Source: Anaerolineales bacterium
Lineage (GTDB): Bacteria; Chloroflexota; Anaerolineae; Anaerolineales; UBA11579
Direction of reading: 5' to 3'
Length of the DNA stretch: 64,000 nucleotides
NCBI GenBank assembly: GCA_019637805.1
Contig: JAHBVB010000001.1
Coordinates: 1,095,875-1,159,874 of the forward strand
The notes under the pieces are model-generated. The model was given only the letters and a program-made list of their open reading frames with translations, had not been told where the DNA came from and ran no database searches. The translations under genes and the position numbers were made by a program. Below are positions 8,279 to 53,533 of the stretch, piece after piece; within the stretch, counting starts at the first letter, position 1; each line of letters begins with the position of its first letter.

Positions 8279-8302
8279 CCTTCATCTTCAAGCGGATTTG
8301 GT

Positions 8303-8330
8303 GTAGGGGCGTAGCATGCTACGCCCCTAC
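8303..8330. repeat. 28 bp palindrome of the GTAGGGGCG type
   Basis: GTAGGGGCGTAGCA and TGCTACGCCCCTAC form a perfect palindrome between two convergent genes. A second element with the same GTAGGGGCG ends but a different centre (GGGTTACCC) is at 27382-27408, so this is a dispersed repeat family whose arms are fixed and whose centre varies. It could also work as a terminator, though no T-run follows. Confidence 0.85.
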
Positions 8331-8350
8331 GCGCTTCAAGTAAAAAAAAT

Positions 8351-8398
8351 TAACCACAGAGGCAAAGAGCACGAAGAACAAACTTTGTGTTGTGGTTA
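8351..8398. repeat. Inverted repeat TAACCACA/TGTGGTTA with CACAGAG-like centre
   Basis: TAACCACA (8351-8358) and TGTGGTTA (8391-8398) are perfect 8 bp arms. The left part, accacagaggcaaagagcac, resembles a short-period repeat dispersed in many bacterial genomes. It lies just past the stop of the minus-strand aminopeptidase gene. Confidence 0.55.
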
Positions 8399-27336: not shown

Positions 27337-27381
27337 CATCATTGTAGAACCCCCAAAATCTGAGCAATGACGGTCAATTGG

Positions 27382-27408
27382 GTAGGGGCGGGGTTACCCC
27401 GCCCCTAC
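27382..27408. repeat. 27 bp GTAGGGGCG palindrome
   Basis: GTAGGGGCGGGGT/ACCCCGCCCCTAC with one central base. Same outer sequence as the palindrome at 8303-8330. It lies between convergent genes. Confidence 0.85.
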
Positions 27409-27430
27409 GAAGAGCCGTATAGCTTGAGGT

Positions 27431-27484
27431 GCGCTGCTGCGCAGCGCGGGAGAATCTACCCGGCTGCGCCGGGTAACGATTCTC
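27431..27484. repeat. Two adjacent hairpins overlapping the lipA 3' end
   Basis: GCGCTGC/GCAGCGC (27431-27447) is followed by GAGAATC...GATTCTC (27450-27484) with an inner ACCCGGC/GCCGGGT stem. The second overlaps the last ~10 codons of lipA, so the tail of LipA (ESLPGAAG) is encoded by the repeat. Similar hairpins stand upstream of lipA. Confidence 0.7.
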
Positions 27485-28451
27485 CATGAGGGTCGGGAGA
27501 CGACGCTTCCCCATACAGTTTGCGATGCACGGCACTCAGCGCGCGCACCTGGTCAGCGGCGTGGTAGCTGCTGCGCACCAGCGGGCCGCTTTCGACCCAC
27601 TGGAAGCCGATGCCCAGGCCGTATTCCTTGAGGTGCATGAATTCTTCCGGCGTGTAGTAGCGGGCGATGGGCAGGTGCTTTTTGCTGGGCTGCAAGTATT
27701 GGCCCAGGGTGAGGATGTCCACGCCCCAGTCGCGCTGGTCGCGCATCACCGCCTTGACCTCGTCCATGGTTTCGCCCAGGCCGAGCATGATGCCGCTCTT
27801 GGTCAGTACTTCGGGGTCCATCTTCTTGGCGTTGCTGAGCGTGGCGGCGGCCCATTCGTAGTTGTCCTGCGGCTGCACCTGCTTGAAGAGCCGCGGCACG
27901 GTTTCCACGTTGTGGTTGAGGATCTCAGGCCGGGCGTCCATGACGATCTTGAGCGCCTCGGCGCTGCCCTTGAAGTCGGGGATGAGCACTTCGATGGAGC
28001 AGCCGGGGTGGATGGCGCGGATGCGCTTGATGACCATGGCGAAGATGGGCGCGCCGCCGTCGGCGCGCTCGTCGCGGTTGACGCTGGTGATGACGGCGTG
28101 CTGCAGGCCCATGTCTTTGACGGCCTGGGCTACCCTGAGGGGTTCGGCCCAGTCCATCTCGTTGGGCATGCCGCGCTTGATGTCGCAGAAGCCGCAGGAG
28201 CGGGTGCAGACGTCGCCGAGCATCAGGAAGGTGGCGGTGCCGTCTCCCCAGCATTCGCCGATGTTGGGGCACATGGCCTCTTCGCAGACGGTGTGCAGGG
28301 CTTTGCTGCGCATCAGGCGCTTGATGTTCTCGTAGCTTTCGCCCATGGGGGCGCGCACGCGGATCCAGTCGGGCCGGCGCATGGGAGTGACGTTGCTGAG
28401 CTGAATGTCGTCGAGCTTGATGCGGTCGCGAGTGGGGGAGTGGTTGGCCAT
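27456..28451 (-). CDS. lipA: Lipoyl synthase
   Basis: Radical SAM enzyme that inserts two sulfurs into octanoyl-lipoyl domains of the 2-oxoacid dehydrogenases and GcvH. 331 aa. The auxiliary cluster motif [12 protein letters not shown] and the radical SAM motif CTRSCGFC are present, as is the C-terminal RSSYHA whose Ser ligates the auxiliary cluster. Full length. A TAAAAT box ends 7 nt before the ATG, so the mRNA is probably leaderless. No lipB lies next to it. The last codons run into a hairpin repeat. Confidence 0.97.
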
Positions 28452-36303: not shown

Positions 36304-36352
36304 GCGGGCGTCGCCAAGTGGTAAGGCATCAGCCTTCCAAGCTGACATTCGC
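36304..36352 (+). pseudogene. 5' fragment of tRNA-Gly(TCC), copy 1
   Basis: GCGGGCG acceptor strand, D-arm GCC...GGC, anticodon arm TCAGC-CTTCCAA-GCTGA with anticodon TCC, variable loop CATTC, then the sequence leaves the tRNA: no T-arm and no CGCCCGC to close the acceptor stem within the next 100 bases. It is the attachment-site remnant of the integrated element. Confidence 0.85.
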
Positions 36353-36412
36353 TCAAACTCCTAAACAGACTACCTGAATTTCAAAGAATCACCCTTAGAA
36401 AGGTGGTTTTTT

Positions 36413-37318
36413 GTGTTTAACGAAGACTTCTCACGGCAGAAAAAGGCATCAGCTTCGGTGCCGCTTGAAGAGGCGTATACAGACTTTATTCTGTCTCGGC
36501 AAGCAATGTTGTGCCGCCCTCGGACTGTCCAGTTCTATGAATTCACTTTGGGAAAATTTGTAGGCTGGCTAGCGGGGCAGGGAGTAGGGCAGGCTGATGA
36601 GATTTCTGCTCGGCATGTCAGAGCCTATCTCTCTGAGTTGGCAGGGCGTGATTTGACTGATACCTATATCCATAGCCATGCAAGAGCAATTCGCACACTT
36701 GTCAGATTCCTACACGCTGAGGAATATCACCCAAGCGAAGTCAAATTCCAAATGCCTGCGATTGCCAAACGCCGTCTCCCTGTGTTGAACTCGGATGAGT
36801 TGCGCAAGGTTGTTTCAGCGTGTGGCAATCCCCGTGATTTGGCCCTAGTGCTTCTGATGGCGGATACTGGCATCCGGCGGGCAGAACTCTGTGCGCTTAA
36901 TTGGGGTGATGTGGATATTTCTAGAGGGACTATTTCAATTCGAGAGGGCAAGGGCGGGAAGGCAAGAACAGTGATCGCTGGCGTGAGAACCAGAAGAGCT
37001 TTATTGAAGTACAGAAGGTTTGTTGCTTCGGAGCCTGCTAGCCCTGTTATTCAAACCCAATCTGGTGGGCGAATGACGTACGGCGGCTTGCGTTCTACAT
37101 TGTTGCGGCTTGGAGAGAAGGCGGGTGTTCACTTGTCGCCGCATGCCTTGAGACGCACCTTTGCCACGCTCTCTCTGCGAGCCGGAATGAACCCGCTTCA
37201 CCTTCAAGGACTGTTAGGACACGCCTCATTGGAGATGACCAATCACTATGTGCAGATGCTAGATGAAGATCTGCAAGTTGCCCACCGTGCATTTGGGCCA
37301 ATAGATAATCATCTATAG
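36413..37318 (+). CDS. Tyrosine recombinase / integrase, copy 1
   Basis: 301 aa XerC/D-like site-specific recombinase. N-terminal SAM-like core-binding domain to about residue 105; catalytic domain with Arg155 (TGIRRAEL), a Lys near 183, the HALR box (His244, Arg247), LLGHAS (His270) and Tyr279 in TNHYV. Start is GTG 36413 with AAAGGTGG 5 nt upstream. A weak CACC/GGTG hairpin covers that Shine-Dalgarno. It differs from the second copy by about 22 residues (roughly 93% identical by eye). It probably drives integration at tRNA-Gly. Confidence 0.95.
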   Translation: MFNEDFSRQKKASASVPLEEAYTDFILSRQAMLCRPRTVQFYEFTLGKFVGWLAGQGVGQADEISARHVRAYLSELAGRDLTDTYIHSHARAIRTLVRFLHAEEYHPSEVKFQMPAIAKRRLPVLNSDELRKVVSACGNPRDLALVLLMADTGIRRAELCALNWGDVDISRGTISIREGKGGKARTVIAGVRTRRALLKYRRFVASEPASPVIQTQSGGRMTYGGLRSTLLRLGEKAGVHLSPHALRRTFATLSLRAGMNPLHLQGLLGHASLEMTNHYVQMLDEDLQVAHRAFGPIDNHL

Positions 37319-37428
37319 TCCCCCCTTGGAACCTCAAAAAAGGGGTCGCTCACTACAGGCATACCTGGCTTGTGTGTTGCGCAGACTTTAGTTAGTATAT
37401 TTCAACGGGTTATCGGGAGGGCAGGTTC

Positions 37429-37713
37429 ATGGCAAGGCGTGAGAAGAAATGCTGTATCTGTGAAAAACGCATCACAGCCCAATTCTGGATATGCAAGGAC
37501 TGTGAACAAGAACACGGCTTAGCCGATGCTTCTGGAAAGCTGAAAAAACCTTCAGAATGGCCAGAGTGGGCTAGGGATTTGTATAACCAAGCGCAGAGAG
37601 ACTACTATAGGGTGCACACAAAAGGGGAAGGCACTGCCTTTGAATACGATGATGAAACCGGTGGCATCGCCAATGCCGATCCACTCGATGAGTTTGACGA
37701 TTCGGAGGGATAA
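37429..37713 (+). CDS. Small zinc-ribbon protein of the module, copy 1
   Basis: 94 aa with CCICEKRITAQFWICKDC: two cysteine pairs 13-14 residues apart that should bind zinc, then a Trp-rich middle (SEWPEWARDLYNQAQRDYY) and an acidic tail (DPLDEFDDSEG). Conserved between the two modules (about 11 changes and one inserted Ser). GGGAGGG precedes the ATG. Always next to the integrase here, so it may be an excision or control factor; this is a guess from position. Confidence 0.85.
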   Translation: MARREKKCCICEKRITAQFWICKDCEQEHGLADASGKLKKPSEWPEWARDLYNQAQRDYYRVHTKGEGTAFEYDDETGGIANADPLDEFDDSEG

Positions 37714-37785
37714 GAGGAAACGCCCGGCTGCATAAGAAGGAGATTAAAATTGCGCTTGCTAAGGGTAATTATTGATCAGCAAAAG

Positions 37786-38115
37786 TGCCTGCGAGTAATA
37801 GATTTTCAACTGTAGCAGGTAAAGAGGGGGATACAAAGTGATTAACTCATCTATGACTTCAAGCAGTCTAAAACAGCCAAACAAGAAGTACCAACAAGTC
37901 TTTCTATTTCAACTGTAGTAGTTAAAAGTAATTTATAGATTAATTAATCGTCTTTCAAGGTGCCCAAAGGGCACCCCATACACTGCGGTTCATAGAACCG
38001 CCTGTGTATGGCTCAATATTCTTTTTTATAACCTAGTTAGCTACTGTTAGCAAAACCTTGGTTTCAACCTCATAAGCAAGTAGGTATTGATTGTTTCATA
38101 GCTTATTACCTGCTT
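37786..38115 (+). ncRNA. Candidate structured RNA of the module, copy 1
   Basis: Inside a 561 bp gap between the zinc-ribbon and HNH genes. Stems: TGCCTGC (37786) with GCAGGTA (37815); GGTGCCC/GGGCACC (37959-37975); CCATACAC (37976) with GTGTATGG (38004) enclosing GCGGTTC/GAACCGC (37985-38001); AAGTAGGTA (38078) with TACCTGCTT (38107). All four recur in the second module, one with a double compensatory change and others with wobble or loop changes. After 38115 a segment with TTTTCGATCGAC is also conserved. Strand is assumed from neighbours. Function unknown; a leader or attenuator for the HNH gene is the simplest alternative. Confidence 0.6.
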
Positions 38116-38274
38116 TTCCCTATACAACTTTTCGATCGACAAACTGTCTTTTTTAGACTACTCGATAACCGAAGTTGTTTATTTTTGCCCTATCCATAGG
38201 AAGGCTTTATTGGTATGAGCAATTAACCCAAGGTCATTCATCTTATTGACCTATAGAACAGGAAGGAGTTCTGC

Positions 38275-38763
38275 ATGAAAGAAGAAACACAAGTTAAAAC
38301 GATATTCAGTAAGCGCTTTTGGAGCAAAGTTCAGATTGGGCCGGAAACTGAATGCTGGAACTGGACTGCATCTACACAATCTAAGGGCTACGGCTCATTT
38401 GGGATTGGTGGGGGAAAGACTGCCTTGGCTCATCGAGTAGCCTATCAACTGACAAAAGGGCCTATTCCCGAAGGCTTGTTGGTACGACACCATTGCGATA
38501 ACCGAATATGCTGCAACCCGGCACATTTAGAGACAGGCACGATTGCGGACAACAATCGTGATGCTGTGCTACGGGGCAGAACTGCCAAGGGTGAACGAAA
38601 TGGTAGAGCAAAGTTGAGCATGGAGCAAGTAGCCGAGATCAGACGGTTGCGCAACGAGGAAAGCTTGAAAATTTCAGAACTAGCTCAAGCTTACAAGATG
38701 CATCCTAAATCTATTTCCAACATTGTTAAAGAACGATATTGGAAGCTTCCAGAGGCACAATGA
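38275..38763 (+). CDS. HNH endonuclease with C-terminal HTH, copy 1
   Basis: 162 aa. Phage/homing-type HNH_3 nuclease: ECWNWTASTQSKGYGSFGI, AHRVAYQLTKGPIPEG, LLVRHHCDNRICCNPAHLE with the catalytic His and the zinc-type Cys/His pairs, GTIADNNRDA. The C-terminal ~45 residues (AKLSMEQVAEIRRLRN, ISELAQAYKMHPKSISNI) form a helix-turn-helix for target binding. GGAAGGAG lies 7 nt before the ATG. It converges on the nuclease gene with a 9 bp gap. It lacks a RuvC domain, so it is not IscB. Confidence 0.93.
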   Translation: MKEETQVKTIFSKRFWSKVQIGPETECWNWTASTQSKGYGSFGIGGGKTALAHRVAYQLTKGPIPEGLLVRHHCDNRICCNPAHLETGTIADNNRDAVLRGRTAKGERNGRAKLSMEQVAEIRRLRNEESLKISELAQAYKMHPKSISNIVKERYWKLPEAQ

Positions 38764-38772
38764 TTGCAGCGT

Positions 38773-39585
38773 TTAAATATCGTCCTCGGAGAAAAAGTCA
38801 AAGTCATACTCAAAGGGATGGGCTTCCTCTTCGTGATCTGAATCCGGCACTATATCGCTTCTCTCACATAGACCGCTGAATTCGCAATAGCTACATAACT
38901 TTCGATTATCCGTTTTGTGGAAATCCCCAATTCTCTCTATCTCTAATGAGGAGATCTCAAGAATCTGCTCTTCGAGATACTTCCTGTCTTTTTCTTTTTG
39001 CTCTTTTGAATAAGTTACAGTGATTGGTTGATCGGGATATTCCACAAACCAATACGTCATCTTTATGTTCTCAGGAGAAATGGGTATTGTTCCATCAAAG
39101 AAACCAGAATCAGCCAACGTGAACGGATAGACTTTTGTCTGCAATTTATCAAGAAGTGTCCCCCGCTTAGGCAAGTTGCTTGATGTCTTCCAGTCAAAGA
39201 TCAAAAATTCATTGTCAATTTGCTGGATAAGGTCGTACCTGGCTACCAATAGGGCATCGGCGGTGATGAGCGTAGTAAGTGTTACTTCTGGGAAAGAAAC
39301 ACCTGTCTTCGAGATGGGTAACCTATCAATAAATGTTTTCCACCAGCCCTTGACTGGATGAGGCAAATCAATGAGATTGATATCGTCAATTGGAACGCCA
39401 ACCAGGAATTGGTGTACCAGTGTGTGGAATAGTTTGCCCGCCCAAACCCTCTCTTGCAAAGTGTCAGCCGCGTCACCATCATCTGTCGGCCAATTCAACG
39501 ATAGGACTCTACGGTAGTAGTATCGACGTCGACAATCAACAAAGTCTTGAAGGCTGGATTGGCTATATGTTTTCTGTGACATCAT
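38773..39585 (-). CDS. PD-(D/E)XK nuclease with AddB-type four-cysteine site
   Basis: 270 aa. RecB/AddB-family nuclease: SQSSLQDFVDCRRRYYYRRVL with Cys18, GKLFHTLVHQFL, the catalytic FLIFDWKTS (Asp and Lys), and a C-terminal CSYCEFSGLC (Cys231, 234, 240). One early and three late cysteines is the layout of the Fe-S site in AddB and Cas4 nucleases. Here the nuclease is a free polypeptide rather than the end of AddB. Last gene of a four-gene operon; its ATG overlaps the helicase stop (ATGA). Confidence 0.88.
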   Translation of the reverse strand: MMSQKTYSQSSLQDFVDCRRRYYYRRVLSLNWPTDDGDAADTLQERVWAGKLFHTLVHQFLVGVPIDDINLIDLPHPVKGWWKTFIDRLPISKTGVSFPEVTLTTLITADALLVARYDLIQQIDNEFLIFDWKTSSNLPKRGTLLDKLQTKVYPFTLADSGFFDGTIPISPENIKMTYWFVEYPDQPITVTYSKEQKEKDRKYLEEQILEISSLEIERIGDFHKTDNRKLCSYCEFSGLCERSDIVPDSDHEEEAHPFEYDFDFFSEDDI

Positions 39586-41804
39586 GCAATACTTTGGGCA
39601 TTCTGTTGGAAAGCGGAGAGGGCTACTGCTGCTTTATTAGTCCCTCTTCTGCCCGCATTCCAGGTAATAATCAAATCTCGCTTAGCGCGAGTTATGCCGA
39701 CATACAACAGACGAAGCTTCTCCTTTGTTAGACCAGTTCTCGCTCCTATAGTTGCCTGTCCCTCATAGTATGGAATATTGGAATTGATAGAATCAATTTG
39801 AGCCTGTACTTCTGCTAATAGATTCAATCTATCTCTGAGATACCATTTCTCATCCATGTAACCGTCATCATTATGGCCAGATGGGAAATTGAAGTTATTA
39901 ACGGCCATCAAATACACTCTATCCCATTCCAAGCCTTTTGCACTATGAATGGTGGATACCACGACTTTTCCTTTATGATGCTCTGGGTCAAAGCCAAATG
40001 CTTCAGATGACATCCCAAAGTACTTTCGCGAATTTGAGGCAATCTCCTCTAGCTCTTTGGTTAGTCTTTGTAGCTCCCACTGAGGGTTCTCCTTCGCAAA
40101 GTTCTTAAGCATCAAAGCAAAGCTAAGCGACAAGGCAATTTTTTCAGGTTGTCTATATAGTTCGTGCGCTAGAGACACTATCATCTGGTCAATCGGCAAA
40201 AAGCGCAAATCAACCCATTTGCGGATCAATTCAATAAATGCACTAAGTTCCGCTGCGTCGTGATTAGAGAAACCCTGTTGCTCTAGGTTTGTATCCAGTG
40301 CACCTTCATCTATGGGCCACAAGAGGTCTTCTACGCGGCTCAGCCTGCTGATGAAGTCCTTCATTTTGACCAGACTGTTTTCATCAATCTGAGTCGATCG
40401 AAGGTGCTTGTGATATACACCAATAACTTTTGATAATAGTTCCGAAGAGCTTGGTTCCGCCAAATATCTCAAAACGTGAACAAGCCCCCCAGCAGATTGT
40501 CGTGTTTCCATGGTGCTAGTAAGCAAAACATCAACCGGCTCAATTCCATGGTTTTTTAGAGCTGAAATCACTCCAAAAGCTATATTGTTTGTCGGTGCTA
40601 GGATTGCCACTGTTTGATCGTGGGACGAAGATAACCATTCTCTACACGAAGAGGCGATAAATCCTGCTTCCTCGGTCTCAGAAAAAGCTTTAGGCAAAAT
40701 TTGTATTTCTGACTCCTCTTTTGGAGGGTTGCCCTGAGGGTCTCCAGGAGGCGTCGCTTGAATTAATGGCTCTGACAGTGCATCTCTTGCCCAAGGATTT
40801 GGGTGAGAAGTTTGCGCCCACCTGATTAAAGTGTTTGCAAGATCAATGATACGAGGAGATGATCTGCCCGAAACAGGCAAGTCGACTGACTTAGATGCGG
40901 AAGAGATGAACTCTCTTAATAATTGCGGATTGGCGGTGCTGAATGTCTCATAAATTGCCTGATTGGGATCACCGACCCGGACCCAATTTCCTTCTTCACC
41001 AACTATCTTTCTAAGAATTTCTTCTTGCAGAACACTGCTATCTTGAGCCTCATCTTCGAGTATATACGGCCACAAATATCGAAGTCTATTCAGATAATCC
41101 TCTTCTGCATCAAGTACTCTACAGGCATGGCGTATTAAGTCGGAAAAATCTAAGGCCCCTCGATTTGACAAAGCCTTCTGATACTCTTTGTAAATACCTG
41201 AAAACATCTGAACAAGCGGATAGTTGTTCCCGTTGCTTAAAAGTTTTTCTTCTAAACCCTCAGGAGTAACCTGATGATCTTTGGCATTTCTGATTAGATT
41301 ATTCGTTAAACGTATCAGCTCGGCAGGTATGTTGGCCCCGCGAACCTCAACTGCTCTTTCTGGGCTTAGCTCAGCAAGATATTCATCCAGTGCAGTTGGA
41401 TTCTTGTCGTACCAATTTTTAACAAGCCCACGGATTATAGTTTCTGCAATTCGCTCATCTACTATTTGAAAATCTTCAGAGATGCCGACTAAGGCCGGTC
41501 GCTCTCGCAAGATGTCATGAGCAATACCGTGAAGTGTCCTAACCCGATAACCGAAACCCGGAAGAAAACCTTTCTCCCGTATCATCAAATTTATTTGGCG
41601 GGAAAAATTCTCAATAGAAGACCTGGTCATAGCAACGATGAGGACTCTTTGATCAGCATCCACCTTCCCTTCGGATACCAGCCTAGCCGCTAGCCTAGAA
41701 AGAGTCCATGTTTTCCCGCTACCTGGCACCGCTGCGACCCCCATATAGCCGCCGGCATAGCTAATTGCCTCTTCTTGTGAATCCCTTGCTTTATAGAGCG
41801 TCAT
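39582..41804 (-). CDS. UvrD/AddA-like SF1 helicase
   Basis: 740 aa from ATG 41804; this start gives an ATGA overlap with the upstream gene, like the other junctions, and is preferred over 41843. Q-motif-like KARDSQEEAISYAGG, Walker A VPGSGKTWTLSRL (about 27-39), DEAQD Walker B (about 251-255), WVRVGDPNQAIYETF motif III, VVVSTIHSAKGLEWDRVYL motif V, and LRLLYVGITRAKRDLIITW motif VI. It has no nuclease domain, unlike AddA; that activity is in the next gene. It probably unwinds DNA from ends, together with the two flanking subunits. Confidence 0.92.
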   Translation of the reverse strand: MTLYKARDSQEEAISYAGGYMGVAAVPGSGKTWTLSRLAARLVSEGKVDADQRVLIVAMTRSSIENFSRQINLMIREKGFLPGFGYRVRTLHGIAHDILRERPALVGISEDFQIVDERIAETIIRGLVKNWYDKNPTALDEYLAELSPERAVEVRGANIPAELIRLTNNLIRNAKDHQVTPEGLEEKLLSNGNNYPLVQMFSGIYKEYQKALSNRGALDFSDLIRHACRVLDAEEDYLNRLRYLWPYILEDEAQDSSVLQEEILRKIVGEEGNWVRVGDPNQAIYETFSTANPQLLREFISSASKSVDLPVSGRSSPRIIDLANTLIRWAQTSHPNPWARDALSEPLIQATPPGDPQGNPPKEESEIQILPKAFSETEEAGFIASSCREWLSSSHDQTVAILAPTNNIAFGVISALKNHGIEPVDVLLTSTMETRQSAGGLVHVLRYLAEPSSSELLSKVIGVYHKHLRSTQIDENSLVKMKDFISRLSRVEDLLWPIDEGALDTNLEQQGFSNHDAAELSAFIELIRKWVDLRFLPIDQMIVSLAHELYRQPEKIALSLSFALMLKNFAKENPQWELQRLTKELEEIASNSRKYFGMSSEAFGFDPEHHKGKVVVSTIHSAKGLEWDRVYLMAVNNFNFPSGHNDDGYMDEKWYLRDRLNLLAEVQAQIDSINSNIPYYEGQATIGARTGLTKEKLRLLYVGITRAKRDLIITWNAGRRGTNKAAVALSAFQQNAQSIA

Positions 41805-43846
41805 GATCTTTGTCCAGCCAGCGCTACATTGATAGTCTCCCAAAGTAGACCCTGATTCTCATGGCCAGTCTCAGAAAGTTGAGAATTCATTAGATAGACT
41901 TTTTGAGTCGCCCTTCTCACAAGGCCAAGCATAATCCTACGTAAGTGCTCCCGATTCTCTCGGTACTCATCTTGGTCTGACCAATGCTTTTCCGCTGGCC
42001 AGTCTTGATTGAAGACATAGGGATGTGTTAACGGCTGATAGATACGCGTATGCCATGCAGTATTTCCAATGTCTAGCAAGAATTGATAAGCGACCGGACG
42101 ATCATGCATTAAGAATGTGTGGGCAGGCGCTAGAAATACCGCACTGTTGTTTTGCTCTTCCCAACTCTGCGGACTCTGTCCTTGAACTATTTCGTCCTTA
42201 AGGGTCTTGATGAATTCCAGTGAAATCTGGGAGTGATCGAATCCCACACGTTCTAAAGCTAGCCGGAATCTTTGAGCAGATGAAATAAAATCCCCAACAA
42301 TTCTGCCACTTTCCAGATTTGAAGTAAATCTATACCCAGGTTGAGACAGCAAGCTCAAAAAGAGTTGAGATAGAAACACATCCAGTTTTAGATGAGGATT
42401 GCCAAGATAACGCTGGATGTATTGTCTGAGTTTCTCGTACTCATTCCCTGCCTTTTCACCGATGCGATCCTTAGTGACATCTGGAATAGAGTCAAATGGC
42501 AGAAGCCACTCAGAGTTCATGCCAATCTTATAGATATTTCCAACTAGCAAATGAGCCCTAACAATATCCAAATCACTTATAAAAAGTGAAAGCATATGAA
42601 CAACTTCATCTTTTGTCGGTTTTTGTCCCCAGTCAGGGTGAGCAATGCAAATCAGGGCCAACAAACTTCTGCCAACTGGTTCATCCTGCATAGATCTAGA
42701 AGGACGACTAGAAACCCAGGGAATGCCTTTTCTGTCAAATCCGGAGGAAACCAAGTATCGAAGTGCATCTGAGAGAAAGGGGGCCAGGACTACTATTTCA
42801 TGGGGTGGAACCTGTTGCTTGACAATAAGGTCTTCTACTATCTCAACGGTCGCTGAGACCATTTCGGGAAAAAACCGATTGTCAATAACCTCAACATTCT
42901 CTTTTGAAGGCGTTGGGTGGGAACTCTTAAATCTTCGCCCTGTCGTCAGAATGCCATCAATACTCTCTGCCAGTGAAGCCAATCCCTGAGATGTTGAATT
43001 GTCCTTGAACAATCTCTTCTCTGCACAAAGGCTCTTTAAAGCATATGCTGAGCTTGGAGAGGCACCAAGAAATTTCCGAATTCCTCCATCGGTGTCGTAG
43101 AGGATCAGGGATTCTTCCAGCCTTGGAAGAAGATCCTTCACAAATTCGTGGACGATGTAAGCATCCTCTTCGCTGTTCTCGTATATCAGATGCCTATATG
43201 CAGAAAGCACATATTCACGAATTTTGCTTTTCTGATCCCGCCATTCATTACTAATAATCTCCATTTGCAAAGAAAAATCTATGAGATTATTTTGTAAACA
43301 ATATTGGCGGAATTTGCTTGCGACAGTTTGAACCTGCTCAAATATGCGCACCTGATGTGAATCATCGCCAGCAGCATAGGTCAACCTTTCAAGTATTTGT
43401 GTGTGTTCCCGCCCATTCAGTGCAGCTTTGTTTAGGTTGTCAATTATTTGGCTATATATTCGGTTTTGATTGATAGTAACTGTTTCAAAGAAGCCCTCTG
43501 CAATATAGAGCCTGGCAACTTGCGCCATAAAATACTCGGTGGTCTCCAAAGTTAAGAATACAGGCGGAGTGCTTTTTTCAAATCCATACTTACTGAACAG
43601 AGTGGGCCAGAATAAATCCAAGAGCCTCCTGGACAAGCCGGAAAACGTTAGTATGTCTACGTGGCTTAACCTGTTTGCGTTCTTGCTCTTTTGATATCTT
43701 TGGCCAAGCTGTCTGTGAGGAAGTAAAACCAAAACTCTCCCGACAAGCCTTTCCATTTCAGTAATGGCAAAGCTGGTTTTGCCAGAGCCATACGGGCCCT
43801 CGATAAATATAGATCTCCCCAACCCGCTATCCTCGCTGAGCATCAC
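41801..43846 (-). CDS. AddB-like ATPase subunit
   Basis: 681 aa. Walker A FIEGPYGSGKTSFAITEME (17-24 for GPYGSGKT), then RVLVLLPHRQLGQRY, a helical middle and an ending with AHTFLMHDRPVAYQFLLDIGN and RAYQKVYLMNSQLSETGHENQG-like text, which follows the layout of AddB, a UvrD-fold protein without clear motor motifs. The usual C-terminal AddB nuclease is missing and encoded separately two genes on. Overlaps both neighbours by ATGA. Assignment to AddB rests on fold pattern and context. Confidence 0.75.
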   Translation of the reverse strand: MMLSEDSGLGRSIFIEGPYGSGKTSFAITEMERLVGRVLVLLPHRQLGQRYQKSKNANRLSHVDILTFSGLSRRLLDLFWPTLFSKYGFEKSTPPVFLTLETTEYFMAQVARLYIAEGFFETVTINQNRIYSQIIDNLNKAALNGREHTQILERLTYAAGDDSHQVRIFEQVQTVASKFRQYCLQNNLIDFSLQMEIISNEWRDQKSKIREYVLSAYRHLIYENSEEDAYIVHEFVKDLLPRLEESLILYDTDGGIRKFLGASPSSAYALKSLCAEKRLFKDNSTSQGLASLAESIDGILTTGRRFKSSHPTPSKENVEVIDNRFFPEMVSATVEIVEDLIVKQQVPPHEIVVLAPFLSDALRYLVSSGFDRKGIPWVSSRPSRSMQDEPVGRSLLALICIAHPDWGQKPTKDEVVHMLSLFISDLDIVRAHLLVGNIYKIGMNSEWLLPFDSIPDVTKDRIGEKAGNEYEKLRQYIQRYLGNPHLKLDVFLSQLFLSLLSQPGYRFTSNLESGRIVGDFISSAQRFRLALERVGFDHSQISLEFIKTLKDEIVQGQSPQSWEEQNNSAVFLAPAHTFLMHDRPVAYQFLLDIGNTAWHTRIYQPLTHPYVFNQDWPAEKHWSDQDEYRENREHLRRIMLGLVRRATQKVYLMNSQLSETGHENQGLLWETINVALAGQRS

Positions 43847-46800
43847 TCAAACTTCACATCTGGCAGGCCATTCACTATATCGACTGTCTGCACGCTCACG
43901 TTTATGACGCTAAGCAGCAAGTCCAGAATGTAGCTTGGCTTGCCCACTTCTTTTGCCCAGTCATTTGGATCGTTGGTAATACCACTATCTTTGTGAGTAA
44001 CAATCTGATAACGCTCCATCACCCACTCAATAGCAGATTTTCCGTTTAGAACATATTCATAGGCTTTGGCAGGGATATTGGTAATCTTTATGTCTTTGTT
44101 GTAAATGATTGTGTCTTTCTTGTCTTTGGATGGGAAACGCATTTTAACCACACGATAATAATCATCTGGCATGCTTTGTCTTGTGATTTCAGGCTGGTGC
44201 ACCACTACTCCATCATGAGCGGGCACTTGTTCATAATTGATATGTAGTTCGGCAAGCTGGCGGCCGGCTTTGCTAAGTGCCCAGAAAGTGCTCGCATCTT
44301 CAGCCAATGGTAGGCGAGGAAGTAGCATCCTCAGGTCATCGCCAAATTTATTGTGATAGCTAGGGCTATGCAAAACACCATAAGCATAATAAAAAATGTC
44401 TTCTTTGATGACCGCCTTTCCATATCGTCCTTGTGCCTGTTTCAAGATAAAGTCTGAAACCCCATCACGTCGAACAAACTCCGCATTGTCTGTATCAAAT
44501 AAAGTTGGAGACTGACTGTCACGCTCCTCATAATAGTAGAGTGGAAAAACTTGAGTATCCCCGATCAGGTGAAAATCAGGAATACAATCCGTCATAATAA
44601 CGGAGAATGGTTTCTTGCCTCCTGGTGCCGATATGCAAATTGCAAAGTTCTCTAAGTCTGGATGAGGGAAAAGTTTGTCTAGTTGACTTTTTTCTTCATT
44701 AAGATCTGCAGCAAAATAACTGTTCTGGCGAGCAAAGGGGCGGTACTGAGATTCTCTATAAAATTCAACCTTCTCAAGTATCAGCTTGTTCTCATGCGCT
44801 TTCTTGCGCCAATCCCGAGACCAACTCCCTAGACGACGATTCCTTTCAACTTCAGAGATTCTCCCTGAAGTGAGTAGTTCTCTCTGAGTATTGTAATGAG
44901 CAATTGTCTTTTTTATGTTTTCCTTTAATCGAGCAATCGAAAAATTATAGACCCAGATATCTCTGCTCGTGACCACTCCATTAGAATATGCGATAAAAAA
45001 TGACTGACTATTTATGTCAAATTTCTTAGCTGCCGCAAGGGGTATTAATGTTTCAAAAATATCACTCCGCTGTCGAAGCCAATCGCCATGTTCATTGGGG
45101 CTGATTTCCTTCCACTTAATCTGAGCATTCGCGACTGAACCAAATTTGGCTATGATGCCTAGCTTTTCCTCTCGGGAGAGATAATCCCCGATGTCGTGGT
45201 AGTAAACATGGGCTTTTTTATCTACCTCGGCCTTGGGGTTCTTGACCAGCACCGTTATTGCAACGGGTGTGCGAGTGCCAGACCCAAATACATTCCCCCT
45301 TTCTTTTTTCCTTAATTCCCCACTAGTTCTAGCATTACCGCGCAAATTGAGTGTCCAAATGCTGCTGAATTCATCAGCTAGCACTTTACGAAAACCGTCG
45401 TGGGTATTGCTATCCAGCCATGAACCATTTGAAACAAAGGCAATTACTCCGCCGTGTTCTGGGTCTAGACGATCACTGGCCCAACGGAATGCCCTCATAT
45501 AAGAGTCGTAGAGTGAGTGCTTATTGGTACCCTTAGCTGCCTTTGCATAAGTCTCAGCTATACGCTCATCTAATCTTTCGTAAACCTTGTTCTGCGCGTT
45601 ATCGTTAGCTGCTCTTTGTCGTGCAGAATAAGGAGGATTGCCAACAATCACCCGAATGGGAGTTGTTTTCTGCTTTTGCACTCTCTCCGAATTTCGAGGG
45701 AAGACCGACATATCCATCAGGCCATCTTCGCCAGCAGTCACTTCTCCCAATTGAAAGCTATCCGTGAGCACGATGCCCTCAAAAGGCTCATACGATTCTT
45801 CAGTGTCTAACAAGTCATGGTAAGTATTCTCAACATTTACAGCTGCAATGTAATATGCTAGCAACACGATTTCATTGGCGTGAATTTCGCTGCGATATTT
45901 TCGGAGAAGGTCTTTGTGGTCAATTAGGTTGTTTTGTAACAAGCGAGTGATAAATGTGCCTGTCCCAGTAAAAGGATCGAGGATGTGAACATTTTCATCA
46001 GAGAGACTACGCCCAAATTCTTGCCTGAGTACCTCTTCCACAGAGTGAATGATGAAATCAACAACTTCTACAGGGGTATAGACAATGCCCAGCTGGTCCA
46101 CCATGCGGGGAAATGCTGTTTTGAAGAATTTCTCATATAGCTCAACTATCACTCGCTGTTTGCCCTGAGCATTATCAATGCCGGCCACACGCTGTCTGAC
46201 TGAGTCGTAAAAAAGCTGTAATGCCTCGGATTCCTCGGCCACTGTCTGACCGTGTAAAGCATCCAGCATCGATTGCATGGATTGGGAAACAGCATTGTTC
46301 TTGACAAAAGAGTAGTTATCAAACAATGCTTCAAAGATAGGCTGGGTAATCATGTGCTGAGCCAACATTTCAACAGCCTGAGGCTCATCAATGCTGGGAT
46401 TGATATTCGCCTGCAAGCCCTTCAAAAAGGCATCAAAGGCAGAACGCTGCTCTTTGCGTTCCGCAATCAGGAATTTAATGCGCTCAATCTGCCGTTCAGC
46501 AATTTGGGCGACGTCTTTGGCCCATTGCTCCCAATAGAGGCGGTCACCCACCTTGTCCACCATGCGGGCAAACACAATGCTCTGTAACTCTTCAAACTGC
46601 CTCCGCAACAGGTGAGCTACATTGCCCACCTGGTATTCAGCGGAGTCTTCACTAACCTGATACGGCCGTCCATCATCCTGGTCAAAAATAGTTTCTGGCC
46701 TGCCGACTAAAATCTGATTGGGACGGGTTTTGTTGAGATCGATTTTGTTGATCGTGGCGTTAAAGCGGTCATCATGTGCTCTTAGAGCATTGAGAACCGT

Positions 46801-48711
46801 CCACACTACCTTGTATCGCTCATTGTCATCCAAGGCCTGGGCGGCATCCACCTCTGGAGGTACGACAACGGGAATGATGATGTAGCCATATTTCTTGCCA
46901 GGGGATTTGCGCATCACCCTGCCAACAGACTGCACAACATCCACCTGGGAGTTGCGAGCTGATAGAAACATCACTGCATCCAACGAGGGCACATCTACTC
47001 CCTCGCTCAGTACACGAACGTTAGTCAAGATGCGACATTCATTAGCATCGCCGGTTTCCTGGAGCCAACCCAGCATCTCGTCTCTCTCAGGAGCACCCAT
47101 CGTTCCGTCAATATGGCGTGCGTGGATGCTGACCATCTCTTCTTTCTTTTGAGGAGGCAGCGCGTTTAAATACACATCAGCCATATCGTTATAGGTGCTT
47201 GTAATCTTTCTAGAAACCTTGATACTCTGGGTGAAAGCGACAGCCCTCCGCATCGGCTCAGGGTCAGCATTCTTGGTAATACCCTGATCCCCCAAGAACT
47301 GCTTAGAGAGTGCGTTGATTGTGCCAATTAGTTTTGAAGCATCGTCAGCGTTGATTTCCGATTTTTCATCAGTAATCATTTGCCAAATCGCTGGAGGAAC
47401 ATCTTTGTTATCCACAGTGAGAATTAAGACCTTGTAATCCGTCAATAAGTCCTTTTCTACCGCTTCGCCAAAACCAATTCGATAGATCTCCTCACCGTAC
47501 ACCTTGGAATCATCCATTGACCACAACAAAGCATCAGCCTGTGACGCCTTGCTTTTGCTGTCATCACTATACAGGCGAGGAGTTGCGGTCATGTAGAGCC
47601 GCTTTTTCGCCTTTATTAAGTTTTTGTCATGCACCTTCACAAAAGCGGATTCATCCTCATCAGCCAACTTGACACCTGTAGTGCGATGAGCTTCATCACA
47701 GATTATGAAGTCAAACTCCTCGAAGCCATCCCGCAATAAGACCTTCTGGGCCTTGGAGATTACATCAATTGACTGATACGTAGAGAATACAACCGTCATT
47801 CCTGGCAGGTTCTTATCTCGTATCTGCCTAAACTGAAACAATATATCGTTTGTATCTGTTGATGCAGGGAGTGCTAAATCTATGACACTGAAGGTGTCAA
47901 TATCCGCATTTCTATCTTTTTGCTTTGTGACTTTGGGGTCTGAGCATATAGCAATTGCATTGATGGGCTGATTGGCATCTGTCATCCAGGCTCTCAGGGT
48001 TTGCCCCAGCAAGGCAATACTGGGCACAAGGAATAGGACTGTTCCCTGACCCTTGGTCTCATGTTCTGCAATACGAAGGGAAGTCAGGGTCTTGCCTGTA
48101 CCACAAGCCATAATCAACTTGCCACGATCTGCGGTTTTGTAATATTCGTGGGCTTTGTCTAATGCAGTTTGCTGATGCTTGAACAGTTTCTTTGGAGCAG
48201 TACGAGACAGTTCGCCATGTACTCCCTCATCAAGCTTTTGCCAGTCTACAGGAGCCTGGCTTAGCTCATACAAACTTAAACGACTAACTGGCGGTTTCTG
48301 ATTTCTAATAGCTTCTGTAGCGTTCTTGCTCCATTTATTTGTCGTGGAAATCCATAAGCGATGAGAGAACGCCTTGGTTAAGAGTTTGTCATCCTTAAAC
48401 TCACGGCTGGAAGTGGAAAGAAAGGTATCAACTGCTGCCTTATCAATGCCAGTATCTTGGTCAGAGAATTTGCACTGAATTGCCCAGTACTCTCCTTCAA
48501 CCGTCAAGGCTACAAGATCAATACCTGCATCAATACCGCCAAGATCGGCTCGATAAGGGAATTCTGACCACAGCCAGACTTTGCTAAAGCGGTCAGCATA
48601 AGTGCGGTCGGTAAGCAAGTAAGCTTGCATCAATCGCTCAAAGCGATCTCCCTTATCCCGTTTGCTGAAAGCTAACTTTCGATGTTTGTCTAGGATGGTT
48701 TTGAATGACAA
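43843..48711 (-). CDS. Single-chain Type ISP-like restriction-modification enzyme
   Basis: 1622 aa with nuclease, translocase, methylase and target recognition in one chain, as in LlaGI/LlaBIII. Residues ~1-130 are an Mrr-like nuclease (Asp65, Gln79-Cys-Lys81 in AIQCKF). SF2 motor: CGTGKT (203-208), DEAH (339-342), TATPRLY and QSVGRVMRK. A helical coupler follows (~700-860), then the methylase: VYTPVEVVDFIIHSVEE, DPFTGTG (912-918) and NPPY (1025-1028). The last ~450 residues form the target recognition part. TTG start with GAGGGA 7 nt upstream. First gene of the operon with the AddAB-like subunits. Confidence 0.92.
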   Translation of the reverse strand: MSFKTILDKHRKLAFSKRDKGDRFERLMQAYLLTDRTYADRFSKVWLWSEFPYRADLGGIDAGIDLVALTVEGEYWAIQCKFSDQDTGIDKAAVDTFLSTSSREFKDDKLLTKAFSHRLWISTTNKWSKNATEAIRNQKPPVSRLSLYELSQAPVDWQKLDEGVHGELSRTAPKKLFKHQQTALDKAHEYYKTADRGKLIMACGTGKTLTSLRIAEHETKGQGTVLFLVPSIALLGQTLRAWMTDANQPINAIAICSDPKVTKQKDRNADIDTFSVIDLALPASTDTNDILFQFRQIRDKNLPGMTVVFSTYQSIDVISKAQKVLLRDGFEEFDFIICDEAHRTTGVKLADEDESAFVKVHDKNLIKAKKRLYMTATPRLYSDDSKSKASQADALLWSMDDSKVYGEEIYRIGFGEAVEKDLLTDYKVLILTVDNKDVPPAIWQMITDEKSEINADDASKLIGTINALSKQFLGDQGITKNADPEPMRRAVAFTQSIKVSRKITSTYNDMADVYLNALPPQKKEEMVSIHARHIDGTMGAPERDEMLGWLQETGDANECRILTNVRVLSEGVDVPSLDAVMFLSARNSQVDVVQSVGRVMRKSPGKKYGYIIIPVVVPPEVDAAQALDDNERYKVVWTVLNALRAHDDRFNATINKIDLNKTRPNQILVGRPETIFDQDDGRPYQVSEDSAEYQVGNVAHLLRRQFEELQSIVFARMVDKVGDRLYWEQWAKDVAQIAERQIERIKFLIAERKEQRSAFDAFLKGLQANINPSIDEPQAVEMLAQHMITQPIFEALFDNYSFVKNNAVSQSMQSMLDALHGQTVAEESEALQLFYDSVRQRVAGIDNAQGKQRVIVELYEKFFKTAFPRMVDQLGIVYTPVEVVDFIIHSVEEVLRQEFGRSLSDENVHILDPFTGTGTFITRLLQNNLIDHKDLLRKYRSEIHANEIVLLAYYIAAVNVENTYHDLLDTEESYEPFEGIVLTDSFQLGEVTAGEDGLMDMSVFPRNSERVQKQKTTPIRVIVGNPPYSARQRAANDNAQNKVYERLDERIAETYAKAAKGTNKHSLYDSYMRAFRWASDRLDPEHGGVIAFVSNGSWLDSNTHDGFRKVLADEFSSIWTLNLRGNARTSGELRKKERGNVFGSGTRTPVAITVLVKNPKAEVDKKAHVYYHDIGDYLSREEKLGIIAKFGSVANAQIKWKEISPNEHGDWLRQRSDIFETLIPLAAAKKFDINSQSFFIAYSNGVVTSRDIWVYNFSIARLKENIKKTIAHYNTQRELLTSGRISEVERNRRLGSWSRDWRKKAHENKLILEKVEFYRESQYRPFARQNSYFAADLNEEKSQLDKLFPHPDLENFAICISAPGGKKPFSVIMTDCIPDFHLIGDTQVFPLYYYEERDSQSPTLFDTDNAEFVRRDGVSDFILKQAQGRYGKAVIKEDIFYYAYGVLHSPSYHNKFGDDLRMLLPRLPLAEDASTFWALSKAGRQLAELHINYEQVPAHDGVVVHQPEITRQSMPDDYYRVVKMRFPSKDKKDTIIYNKDIKITNIPAKAYEYVLNGKSAIEWVMERYQIVTHKDSGITNDPNDWAKEVGKPSYILDLLLSVINVSVQTVDIVNGLPDVKFE

Positions 48712-48746
48712 GATGATTCCCTCAGATGCTGGATGCGTCCAAAAGA

Positions 48747-48752
48747 ATTATA
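48747..48752 (-). promoter_or_regulatory. -10 box of the ISP/AddAB-like operon
   Basis: TATAAT on the minus strand 35 nt before the TTG start, preceded by TG; no clear -35. The 178 bp region 48712-48889 otherwise holds no gene and forms the right end of the first mobile unit. Confidence 0.5.
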
Positions 48753-48889
48753 CATTTTCTCGCTCTCTTGCATGTTGTGCAAACCCAAAGCCCCCAAGTT
48801 AGTTATAATTAAGGCATCAACTTCGATAGATTCTTTGGGATTTGGCATAGTCTAGGGCAAGAAATTACCCTTAGAAAACAGAGTTAAAT

Positions 48890-48938
48890 GCGGGCGTCGC
48901 CAAGTGGTAAGGCATCAGCCTTCCAAGCTGACATTCGC
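48890..48938 (+). pseudogene. 5' fragment of tRNA-Gly(TCC), copy 2
   Basis: Identical to the fragment at 36304-36352 and to the next 9 bases (tcaaactc plus one), after which the copies diverge. Upstream identity stops three bases before the tRNA. No T-arm or 3' acceptor strand follows. It is a direct repeat of the attachment site and bounds the first unit on its right. Confidence 0.85.
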
Positions 48939-48996
48939 TCAAACTCTTAGACGAACAGTCAAAACCTCAAAAATCACCCGTAGAAAGGTGGTTTTT

Positions 48997-49902
48997 GTGT
49001 TTAACGAAGACTTCTCCCAGCAGAAAAAGGCATCAGCTTCGGTACTGCTTGAAGAGGCGTATGCGGACTTTATCCTGTCTCGGCAAGCCATGTTGTGTCG
49101 CCCTCGGACTGTCCAGTTCTATGAATTTACTTTGAATAAATTTGTGGGCTGGCTGGCAGGGCAGGGAGTGGAGCAGGCTGATGAGATTTCTGCTCGGCAT
49201 GTCAGGGCGTATCTCTCTGATTTGGCTGGGCGCGATTTGACTGATACTTATATCCATAGCCACGCAAGAGCAATCCGCACATTCGTTAGATTCCTCTATG
49301 CTGAGGACTATCACCCAGGTGAGATCAAGTTCCAAATGCCTGCAATTGCCAAGCGGCGTCTCCCTGTGTTGAACTCGGATGAACTACGCAAGGTTGTTTC
49401 GGTATGCAGCAACCCCCGCGATTTGGCTTTAGTGCTCTTGATGGCTGATACGGGTGTCCGGCGGGCAGAGCTCTGTGCGCTCAATTGGGGCGATGTGGAT
49501 ATTTCTAGAGGGACTATTTCAATTCGTGAGGGCAAGGGTGGGAAAGCAAGAACAGTAATCGCTGGCGTGAGAACCAGACGGGCATTGTTGAAATACAGGA
49601 GGCTTGTTGCCTCGGAACCGACCTCCCCTGTGATTCAAACTAAATCTGGCGGCAGGATGACACACGGCGGATTGCGTTCTGCGTTGTTGCGACTTGGAGA
49701 GAAGGCAGGCGTTCACTTGTCTCCACATACTTTGAGGCGCACATTTGCTACGCTCTCTCTTCGAGCAGGGATGAATCCGCTGCATTTGCAAGGATTGCTG
49801 GGGCATGCCTCTCTGGAGATGACCAATCATTATGTGCATATGCTGGATGAGGACTTGCAGGTTGCTCATCGCTCTTTTGGGCCGATAGACAATCATCTAT
49901 AG
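48997..49902 (+). CDS. Tyrosine recombinase / integrase, copy 2
   Basis: 301 aa paralogue of the copy at 36413 with all catalytic residues kept (TGVRRAEL, HTLRR, LLGHAS, TNHYV). An open frame extends upstream into the tRNA fragment, but the GTG at 48997 has the same AAAGGTGG Shine-Dalgarno as copy 1, and the extension is not conserved there. Both copies look active. Confidence 0.94.
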   Translation: MFNEDFSQQKKASASVLLEEAYADFILSRQAMLCRPRTVQFYEFTLNKFVGWLAGQGVEQADEISARHVRAYLSDLAGRDLTDTYIHSHARAIRTFVRFLYAEDYHPGEIKFQMPAIAKRRLPVLNSDELRKVVSVCSNPRDLALVLLMADTGVRRAELCALNWGDVDISRGTISIREGKGGKARTVIAGVRTRRALLKYRRLVASEPTSPVIQTKSGGRMTHGGLRSALLRLGEKAGVHLSPHTLRRTFATLSLRAGMNPLHLQGLLGHASLEMTNHYVHMLDEDLQVAHRSFGPIDNHL

Positions 49903-50011: not shown

Positions 50012-50299
50012 ATGACAAGGCGTGAGAAGAAATGCTGCATCTGTGACAAGCGCATCACAGCTCAATTCTGGGTATGCAAGGACTGTGAAAAACAACACGG
50101 CTTAGCCGATGCTTCCTCTGGAAAGCAGAAAAGACCTTCAGAATGGCCAGAGTGGGCTAGGGATTTGTATAACCAAGCCCAGAGAGAATACTATAGGGTG
50201 CACACAAAAGGGGAAGGCGCAGCCTTTCAGTACGATGATGAAACCGGTGGTCTTGCCAATGCCGATCCACTCGATGAGTTTGACGATTCGGAAGGATAA
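50012..50299 (+). CDS. Small zinc-ribbon protein of the module, copy 2
   Basis: 95 aa counterpart of the protein at 37429, with CCICDKRITAQFWVCKDC and the same acidic tail. GGAGGGA lies upstream of the ATG. The 110 bp between integrase stop and this gene is also conserved between modules. Confidence 0.85.
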   Translation: MTRREKKCCICDKRITAQFWVCKDCEKQHGLADASSGKQKRPSEWPEWARDLYNQAQREYYRVHTKGEGAAFQYDDETGGLANADPLDEFDDSEG

Positions 50300-50370
50300 G
50301 CGGAATGCTTGGCTGCATAAGAGAGAGATTAAAATTGCGCTTGCTACGGGTAATTATTGACCAGTAAAAG

Positions 50371-50694
50371 TGCCTACGAGTAATAGATTTTCAACTGTAG
50401 TAGGTAAGAGGGACACAAAGTGATTAACTTATTTGTGACTGCAAGCAGTCTAAGACAACTAGTAAGAAGTACCAACAAGTCTTTCTCTTTCAACTGTGAG
50501 AAGAAGTATTTTACAGATGAATTAATCGTCTTCAGGGTGCCTTTTGGGCACCCCCATACGCAGCGGTTCATTCGAACCGCCTGTGTATGGCTAAATATTC
50601 TTTTTTATAACCTAGTTGGCTAATAGTAGCAAAATCTTGATTTCAACCTCATAAGTAAGTAGGTATTGATTGCTTCACAGCTTGTTACCTACTT
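50371..50694 (+). ncRNA. Candidate structured RNA of the module, copy 2
   Basis: Lies in a 552 bp gene-free stretch (50300-50851). Stems matching copy 1: TGCCTAC (50371) with GTAGGTA (50400), where a G-C pair of copy 1 has become A-T; GGGTGCC (50535) with GGCACCC (50547); CCATACGC (50554) with GTGTATGG (50583), A-T changed to G-T wobble, enclosing GCGGTTC/GAACCGC; AAGTAGGTA (50657) with TACCTACTT (50686), where copy 1 has a wobble. Loops differ more than stems. Confidence 0.6.
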
Positions 50695-50851
50695 TTCCCT
50701 ATACAACTTTTCGATCGACAATCTGTCTTTTTAGGCCTCGATGACCGAAGCGGGGTTTGTTACGTCTTATTTCAGGACAAGCTCATTGGTGAGGAGTAAT
50801 CAAAGAGGGGGTTCGTGTCTTTTATTGAACGCTAGAACAAGGAGGAGTTTT

Positions 50852-51337
50852 ATGCAAGAGATGACCAATAACACGATCATTAGGAAACGCTTTTGGGACA
50901 AGGTTCAAATTGGCGAAGAGAATCAATGCTGGAACTGGACAGGAGGTCGGCAATCAAAGGGTTACGGTTCTTTTGGGATTGGCAATGGAAAGACTGCTTT
51001 ATCGCATCGGGTAGCTTATCAACTGACGAAAGGTGCTATTCCTGATGGCCTTTTGGTCAGGCATCGGTGTGATAATCAGCTATGTTGCAATCCAGAGCAT
51101 CTGGAGTTGGGCACTGTTGCTGATAATAATCGAGATGCAGTGGAACGCGGGAGGACTGCGACAGGTGAACGCAATGGAAGAGCGAAATTGACACAAGAAC
51201 AAGTGCTGGAGATACGCAAGTTGCATAAGGCCAAGCGGAAGAGGATCCGTGAGCTGGCCAGATTGTATAAAATGCATCCCAACTCAATTTCAAATATTCT
51301 CAAGGGTCGTTACTGGAACTTCCCTGAGGTTCAGTAA
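50852..51337 (+). CDS. HNH endonuclease with C-terminal HTH, copy 2
   Basis: 161 aa, same architecture as copy 1 (CWNWTGGRQSKGYGSFGI, LLVRHRCDNQLCCNPEHLE, C-terminal HTH) but only about 70% identical by eye, clearly more diverged than the integrase pair. The ATG at 50852 has GGAGGAG 5 nt upstream and aligns with copy 1; the longer open frame from 50741 is not used in copy 1. Confidence 0.92.
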   Translation: MQEMTNNTIIRKRFWDKVQIGEENQCWNWTGGRQSKGYGSFGIGNGKTALSHRVAYQLTKGAIPDGLLVRHRCDNQLCCNPEHLELGTVADNNRDAVERGRTATGERNGRAKLTQEQVLEIRKLHKAKRKRIRELARLYKMHPNSISNILKGRYWNFPEVQ

Positions 51338-53365: not shown

Positions 53366-53473
53366 GAGCGTAACTCGCTATTTGTCCGGTTTTTCACCGG
53401 CCTGTTTCCGACTTGTTGGCTAACTCTTGTTTTTGTTGACTAGTTGCCTTTATAGTGAATGTGCTGTTTGTGG

Positions 53474-53533
53474 TTGCGAATTACCCCCTCTAATTCGCAA
53501 TCAGCCCCGGCCTCATTTTGAGGCCGGGTTTTT
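53474..53533 (+). terminator. Double hairpin with intrinsic terminator
   Basis: TTGCGAATTA/TAATTCGCAA (53474-53500, 10 bp perfect stem) is followed after 5 nt by CCCGGCCTCA/TGAGGCCGGG (53506-53528) and TTTTTG. The second is a standard terminator for the NusG-paralogue unit and also overlaps the end of the convergent phosphatase gene. Confidence 0.85.

Follow-up and report, generated by a model that had tools for sequence, protein, structure and literature searches.

A hairpin pair conserved between two tandem tRNA-Gly islands of an Anaerolineales bacterium, a candidate structured leader of an HNH endonuclease gene

Introduction

Homing-endonuclease genes are known to be kept at low expression by hairpins in their leaders and by weak terminators (PMC2988022). 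In the phage leaders described there (T4 I-TevI and segB, Aeh1 mobE, and seg43(25) of Aeromonas phage 25), a very stable RNA hairpin lies upstream of the endonuclease gene, as at the locus reported here. Aeh1 mobE is an HNH enzyme, like the endonuclease here, and the hairpin of seg43(25) stands upstream of the ribosome site and leaves it uncovered, again as here. Unlike in the phage leaders, the hairpins here are paired, lie 263 nt away from the gene and belong to a bacterial tRNA island, and no late-promoter arrangement was seen. A structured RNA directly upstream of an HNH-containing nuclease gene is also known as the HEARO or omega RNA of IscB-type nucleases (PMC9755519). This candidate was rejected since Rfam gave no HEARO match and the 162-aa HNH protein here has only HNH_3 over the cut-off and no RuvC by Pfam. 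With the large ornate RNAs GOLLD, ROOL and OLE of bacteria (PMC12286853) the locus shares the likeness of a candidate non-coding structured RNA, but it has no Rfam match and its supported structure is far smaller.

The window analysed here is a stretch of 64,000 nt from Anaerolineales bacterium assembly GCA_019637805.1 (contig JAHBVB010000001.1, positions 1,095,875 to 1,159,874). Its features are listed in Table 1.

Table 1. Features of the two islands and of the gap upstream of the HNH gene (window positions)
Feature	Position	Strand	Remarks
tRNA-Gly(TCC) 5' fragment	36304..36353	+	left junction of island 1; Rfam tRNA match
Tyrosine integrase (INT), island 1	36413..37318	+	PF00589, 1.4e-29
Zinc-ribbon-like protein (ZnR), 94 aa	37429..37713	+	CxxC..CxxC in sequence
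Conserved non-coding block, ZnR to HNH	37714..38163	+	~14% divergent between copies; no Rfam match
Hairpin TGCCTGC/GCAGGTA	37786..37822	+	one two-sided change, 37791/37816; weak alone
Possible long-range stem GATTAA/TTAATC	37840-37845 with 37944-37949 (span 37840..37949)	+	weak
Possible long-range stem ATCTAT/ATAGAT	37849-37854 with 37935-37940	+	weak
First hairpin of pair, GGTGCCC aaa GGGCACC	37959..37975	+	7 bp, three-base loop
Second, nested hairpin CCATACAC..GCGGTTC ata GAACCGC..GTGTATGG	37976..38011	+	directly abuts first hairpin
Hairpin AAGTAGGTA/TACCTGCTT	38078..38116	+	weak alone
Short GACA/TGTC hairpin, then T run	38138..38154	+	possible 3' end; conserved block stops here
AGAAC/GTTCT hairpin, HNH Shine-Dalgarno in loop	38255..38272	+	not significant alone
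HNH_3 endonuclease, C-terminal helix-turn-helix-like part	38275..38763	+	PF13392 8.4e-14; PADLOC homing endonuclease 8.5e-7
Second tRNA-Gly 5' fragment	48890..48939	+	ends island 1 on the right; left junction of island 2
Module copy 2, island 2	INT 48997-49902, ZnR 50012-50299, HNH 50852-51337
Copy 2 of conserved non-coding block	50300..50739	+
Copy 2 of hairpin pair	50535..50590 (50535-50553 + 50554-50590)	+	z -7.7

Results

Two tandem islands in the window have tRNA-Gly(TCC) as their site. The first 52 nt of the tRNA-Gly are present at 36304, at 48890 and, on another contig, at G000:C2:18524, and an integrase gene follows each of the two fragments in the window. The fragment at 36304..36353 was not a whole tRNA by ARAGORN, while G000:C2:18524 carries an intact tRNA-Gly; provided that the two contigs adjoin, island 2 probably ends there on its right side. 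Because the right end of an island bears the tRNA 5' part, the tRNA is restored on the right side. Both islands start with an integrase, a zinc-ribbon protein, a non-coding gap and an HNH gene, and the cargo comes next; in island 1 it includes a PD-(D/E)XK nuclease, two UvrD-type proteins and a type ISP restriction enzyme. The HNH gene is predicted from its HNH_3 and PADLOC homing endonuclease profile matches to encode a homing-type endonuclease. For ZnR no Pfam family scored over the cut-off, 400 genomes of the order contained no relative at E<=0.001, and none of note was found in viral contigs, phages, the class, the order or genome contigs; in the searches as made, it is known only from this genome. 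Its structure prediction was of low confidence, and a fold search gave no match.

Islands with the same integrase-gap-HNH order were found in the same-genus genomes G001 (two) and G002 (one), and the three elements lie in the same orientation in 5/5 islands found in the genus. The sister islands share neither the gap sequence nor ZnR, and their gaps could not be aligned with the block, a short promoter-like motif excepted. In one of them (L086), HNH is preceded at about 180 nt by a 23-bp hairpin, unrelated but of equal stability; in another (L085), a perfect sigma-70 promoter directed to HNH follows closely on the integrase gene. No such structure was found in the gap of the G002 island (L087), so a hairpin structure is not required in every island. 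This tRNA-Gly island family (window 36304-48939; L086; L087; L085) is built of integrase, variable slot, HNH and cargo, and three of the five tRNA-Gly islands of the genus bear type ISP restriction genes or part of such a gene.

The original prediction compared two module copies, and all the base changes named in it are present, at 37791/37816, 37982/38005 and 38081/38112. The gap is about 86% identical between the copies (aligned 37726-38174), with a divergence of 14% up to 38163 and about 41% from 38164 on. A coding role of the block was rejected, as the copies differ by 1- and 3-nt indels and have no common frame. Fourfold-site differences between the module copies amounted to 53/140 (38%) in INT and 3/28 (11%) in ZnR (p 0.004), and to 72% in HNH; the HNH of copy 1 is about equally close to a sister-island HNH (70%) and to the HNH of copy 2 (71%). 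Divergence within the module is lowest in ZnR and the block. Judged from these sequences, the module is a mosaic. That ZnR and the gap have diverged so little may be due partly to recent exchange between the tandem islands and not to constraint. The block also holds two direct repeats (37783-37823 and 37886-37926), 103 nt apart and ending TTTCAACTGTAG(C/T)AG(G/T)TAAA, the second of which is altered in copy 2.

Rfam searches at gathering and at E<=10 detected no RNA family in the region beyond the two tRNA fragments, and a group I intron with an HNH gene was rejected since no catalytic-core match was obtained. No further copy of the non-coding block was found in 101 relatives or among plasmids and phages. 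Two DNA patterns run against viral contigs gave one stretch each (L111 and L124), that in L111 being at chance level by nhmmer. A third copy was found in none of the Rfam, viral, phage, plasmid or relative-genome searches; the genome contigs were scanned with the flanking ZnR and HNH proteins only, and the HNH scan returned mainly two sister islands, plus scattered less similar HNH genes. Of the regions upstream of HNH genes in related elements, whose collection was first proposed, the sister gaps are unrelated to the block, and these searches yielded no third copy. The evidence for an undescribed structured RNA over some 330 nt thus comes from two copies, which may be alike partly through recent exchange.

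For the chance tests of folding, the same substitutions were moved to random sites on copy 1, which was then refolded. The consensus energy of the originally predicted block was -68.8 on the + strand against -49.2 +/- 6.3 in the null model (reached by 0.27% of 1500), and -59.3 on the - strand against -47.5 +/- 6.0 (reached by 2.9%), corresponding to z of about -3.6 and -2.0. Among 12 stretches from the integrase to HNH this block was a clear outlier (z -3.6), followed by 37950-38279 (z -2.7), and the others ranged from -0.9 to +1.9. The consensus fold has two-sided changes in several stems (6 vs 2.2 expected). Under a structure derived from one copy alone, 12 pairs were broken (15.5 expected, p 0.15) and three two-sided changes were found (1.0 expected, p 0.07), which, with the weak single stems, puts a lone compensatory change at about chance level; this bears on how much weight compensatory changes between two copies can carry. 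The change in the TGCCTGC/GCAGGTA stem, which had been put forward as evidence, is real (G-C to A-T) but within chance (p 0.14 alone, shuffle z -1.8). The stem ATCTAT/ATAGAT has an A-T to G-C change at 37853/37936, and the region of the long-range stems (37830-37952) alone gave p 0.03. The AAGTAGGTA/TACCTGCTT hairpin changes from T-G to T-A at 38081/38112 (p about 0.17 alone). Around the Shine-Dalgarno, the AGAAC/GTTCT hairpin had a shuffle z of -0.4 in copy 1 and -1.5 in copy 2.

The folding signal of the block comes almost wholly from 68 nt (37953-38020), the sole strong piece when the block was split (MFE z -7.2 on the + strand and -6.2 on the - strand). Against shuffles, the hairpin pair in this piece gave z -6.9 in copy 1 and -7.7 in copy 2. 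Its base pairs are identical between the copies in 20 of 22 cases, and the other two differ by wobble; in the nested hairpin CCATACAC/GTGTATGG, A at 37982 becomes G opposite T at 38005. Loop bases had been said to vary more freely, and this holds inside the hairpin pair, where changed positions are 2/44 paired vs 6/13 unpaired (p 0.001), but not over the whole block (changed columns 28/204 paired vs 36/235 unpaired, p 0.69). For the hairpin pair 37959-38011 the data support selection to keep the fold, and for the remainder of the block they do so only weakly. A span of about 330 nt, as claimed for this selection, was not borne out, the other stems being weak singly.

These results bear on whether the block is a structured RNA in its own right, some 400 nt long (about 37.74-38.16 kb), acting in trans and perhaps bound by ZnR. 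The two copies cease to be similar at a T run behind a small hairpin, ZnR and the block, both absent from the sister islands, are least diverged, and the excess of two-sided changes in the consensus fold points the same way. However, no stem is outstanding outside the hairpin pair, a fold derived from a single copy is not clearly retained, the searches gave no third copy, the low divergence may stem from exchange, and ZnR has neither a confident fold nor a fold match. We regard such an RNA as improbable, and a new island-borne RNA of this size, complexed with ZnR or the HNH nuclease and guiding or controlling its partner, as highly improbable.

An RNA structure is favoured over a DNA structure by the somewhat better + strand scores and the wobble pairs, although the + and - signals are too alike for strand scores to decide between the two. 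Inverted-repeat sites are common in mobile islands, and the hairpins could act as such a site of the island (protein binding, replication or transfer origin, packaging). Both strands favour the hairpin pair about equally, which speaks for such a site, but over the block the + strand is better. Since sister islands with related integrases lack the hairpins, these are no general part of island movement, and a DNA site is rather unlikely.

The gap might also have received, by chance, a repeat-like hairpin pair that is dispersed in the host genus. At several intergenic sites in the genus a short hairpin with a triloop stands directly against a longer, bulged one, and these sites form one sequence family. 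The model of this family (R1), however, matches neither copy at E<=10, and the model of the hairpin pair, run against 61 genomes, matched the two known copies only; such an origin is very improbable. The dispersed family reads GCGCTGC..GCAGCGC then GGAGAA..CTCGGC..GCCGAG..TTCTCC, with about five good matches in the genome of the window. Its sites include window 27427-27488, L086 16080-16142 and 17046-17106, L085 8759-8821, L087 5738-5783 and 5803-5848, and L093 1388-1450, several of which directly adjoin genes or fragments of tRNA-Gly or tRNA-Met. Other repeat-like intergenic hairpins, GTAGGGGCG..CGCCCCTAC, lie at window 8297-8364 and 27354-27421.

The position of the hairpin pair, 250-300 nt after ZnR, would also suit a hairpin that serves the ZnR gene, as an ordinary terminator or as a 3' stabiliser, and is unconnected to HNH; a T-rich stretch, TTCTTTTTTAT, starts about 9 nt past the stem. 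The fit to a standard terminator is poor, as a canonical one in the window (53466-53533) has its T run right after the stem, and we consider this explanation quite unlikely. An intrinsic terminator, defined by a G+C-rich stem with a T run at once, was rejected on the same 9-nt spacing. Without an immediate T run, and ending 263 nt before HNH, the hairpin pair is neither a standard terminator nor a cover of the ribosome site. No promoter or terminator stood out in scans of the gap in the window, and the GACA/TGTC hairpin with its T run stayed under the terminator scan cut-off.

Discussion

We tentatively propose, with a probability of about 0.45, that the hairpin pair acts in cis on the HNH mRNA, as a structured leader or attenuator that keeps HNH production low. 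The gap between ZnR and HNH would be part of a transcript running through the HNH gene, and the hairpin pair, together with the weaker flanking stems, would fold in the RNA upstream of HNH. Low HNH output could then result from RNA polymerase pausing or stopping at the hairpins. Alternatively, the hairpins may protect the message from RNases or expose it to them, or may separate HNH translation from the preceding genes. We infer that the + strand is transcribed, that the hairpins act on HNH and in which direction they do so.

The leader reading fits the place, the strand and the phage precedent (PMC2988022), the structure being predicted as stable, upstream of the endonuclease gene and on its strand. 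The constant order and orientation of integrase, gap and HNH in the islands of the genus, the L086 hairpin and the L085 promoter also speak for it. Against it stand the nearly equal - strand signal of the hairpin pair, the lack of an outstanding promoter or terminator in the gap, the distance of 263 nt from HNH, and the G002 island with no such structure. If the leader reading is true, it suggests that structure keeps HNH genes of bacterial tRNA islands in check, much as it does in phages, and that one structure would freely give way to another from island to island, with its position preserved.
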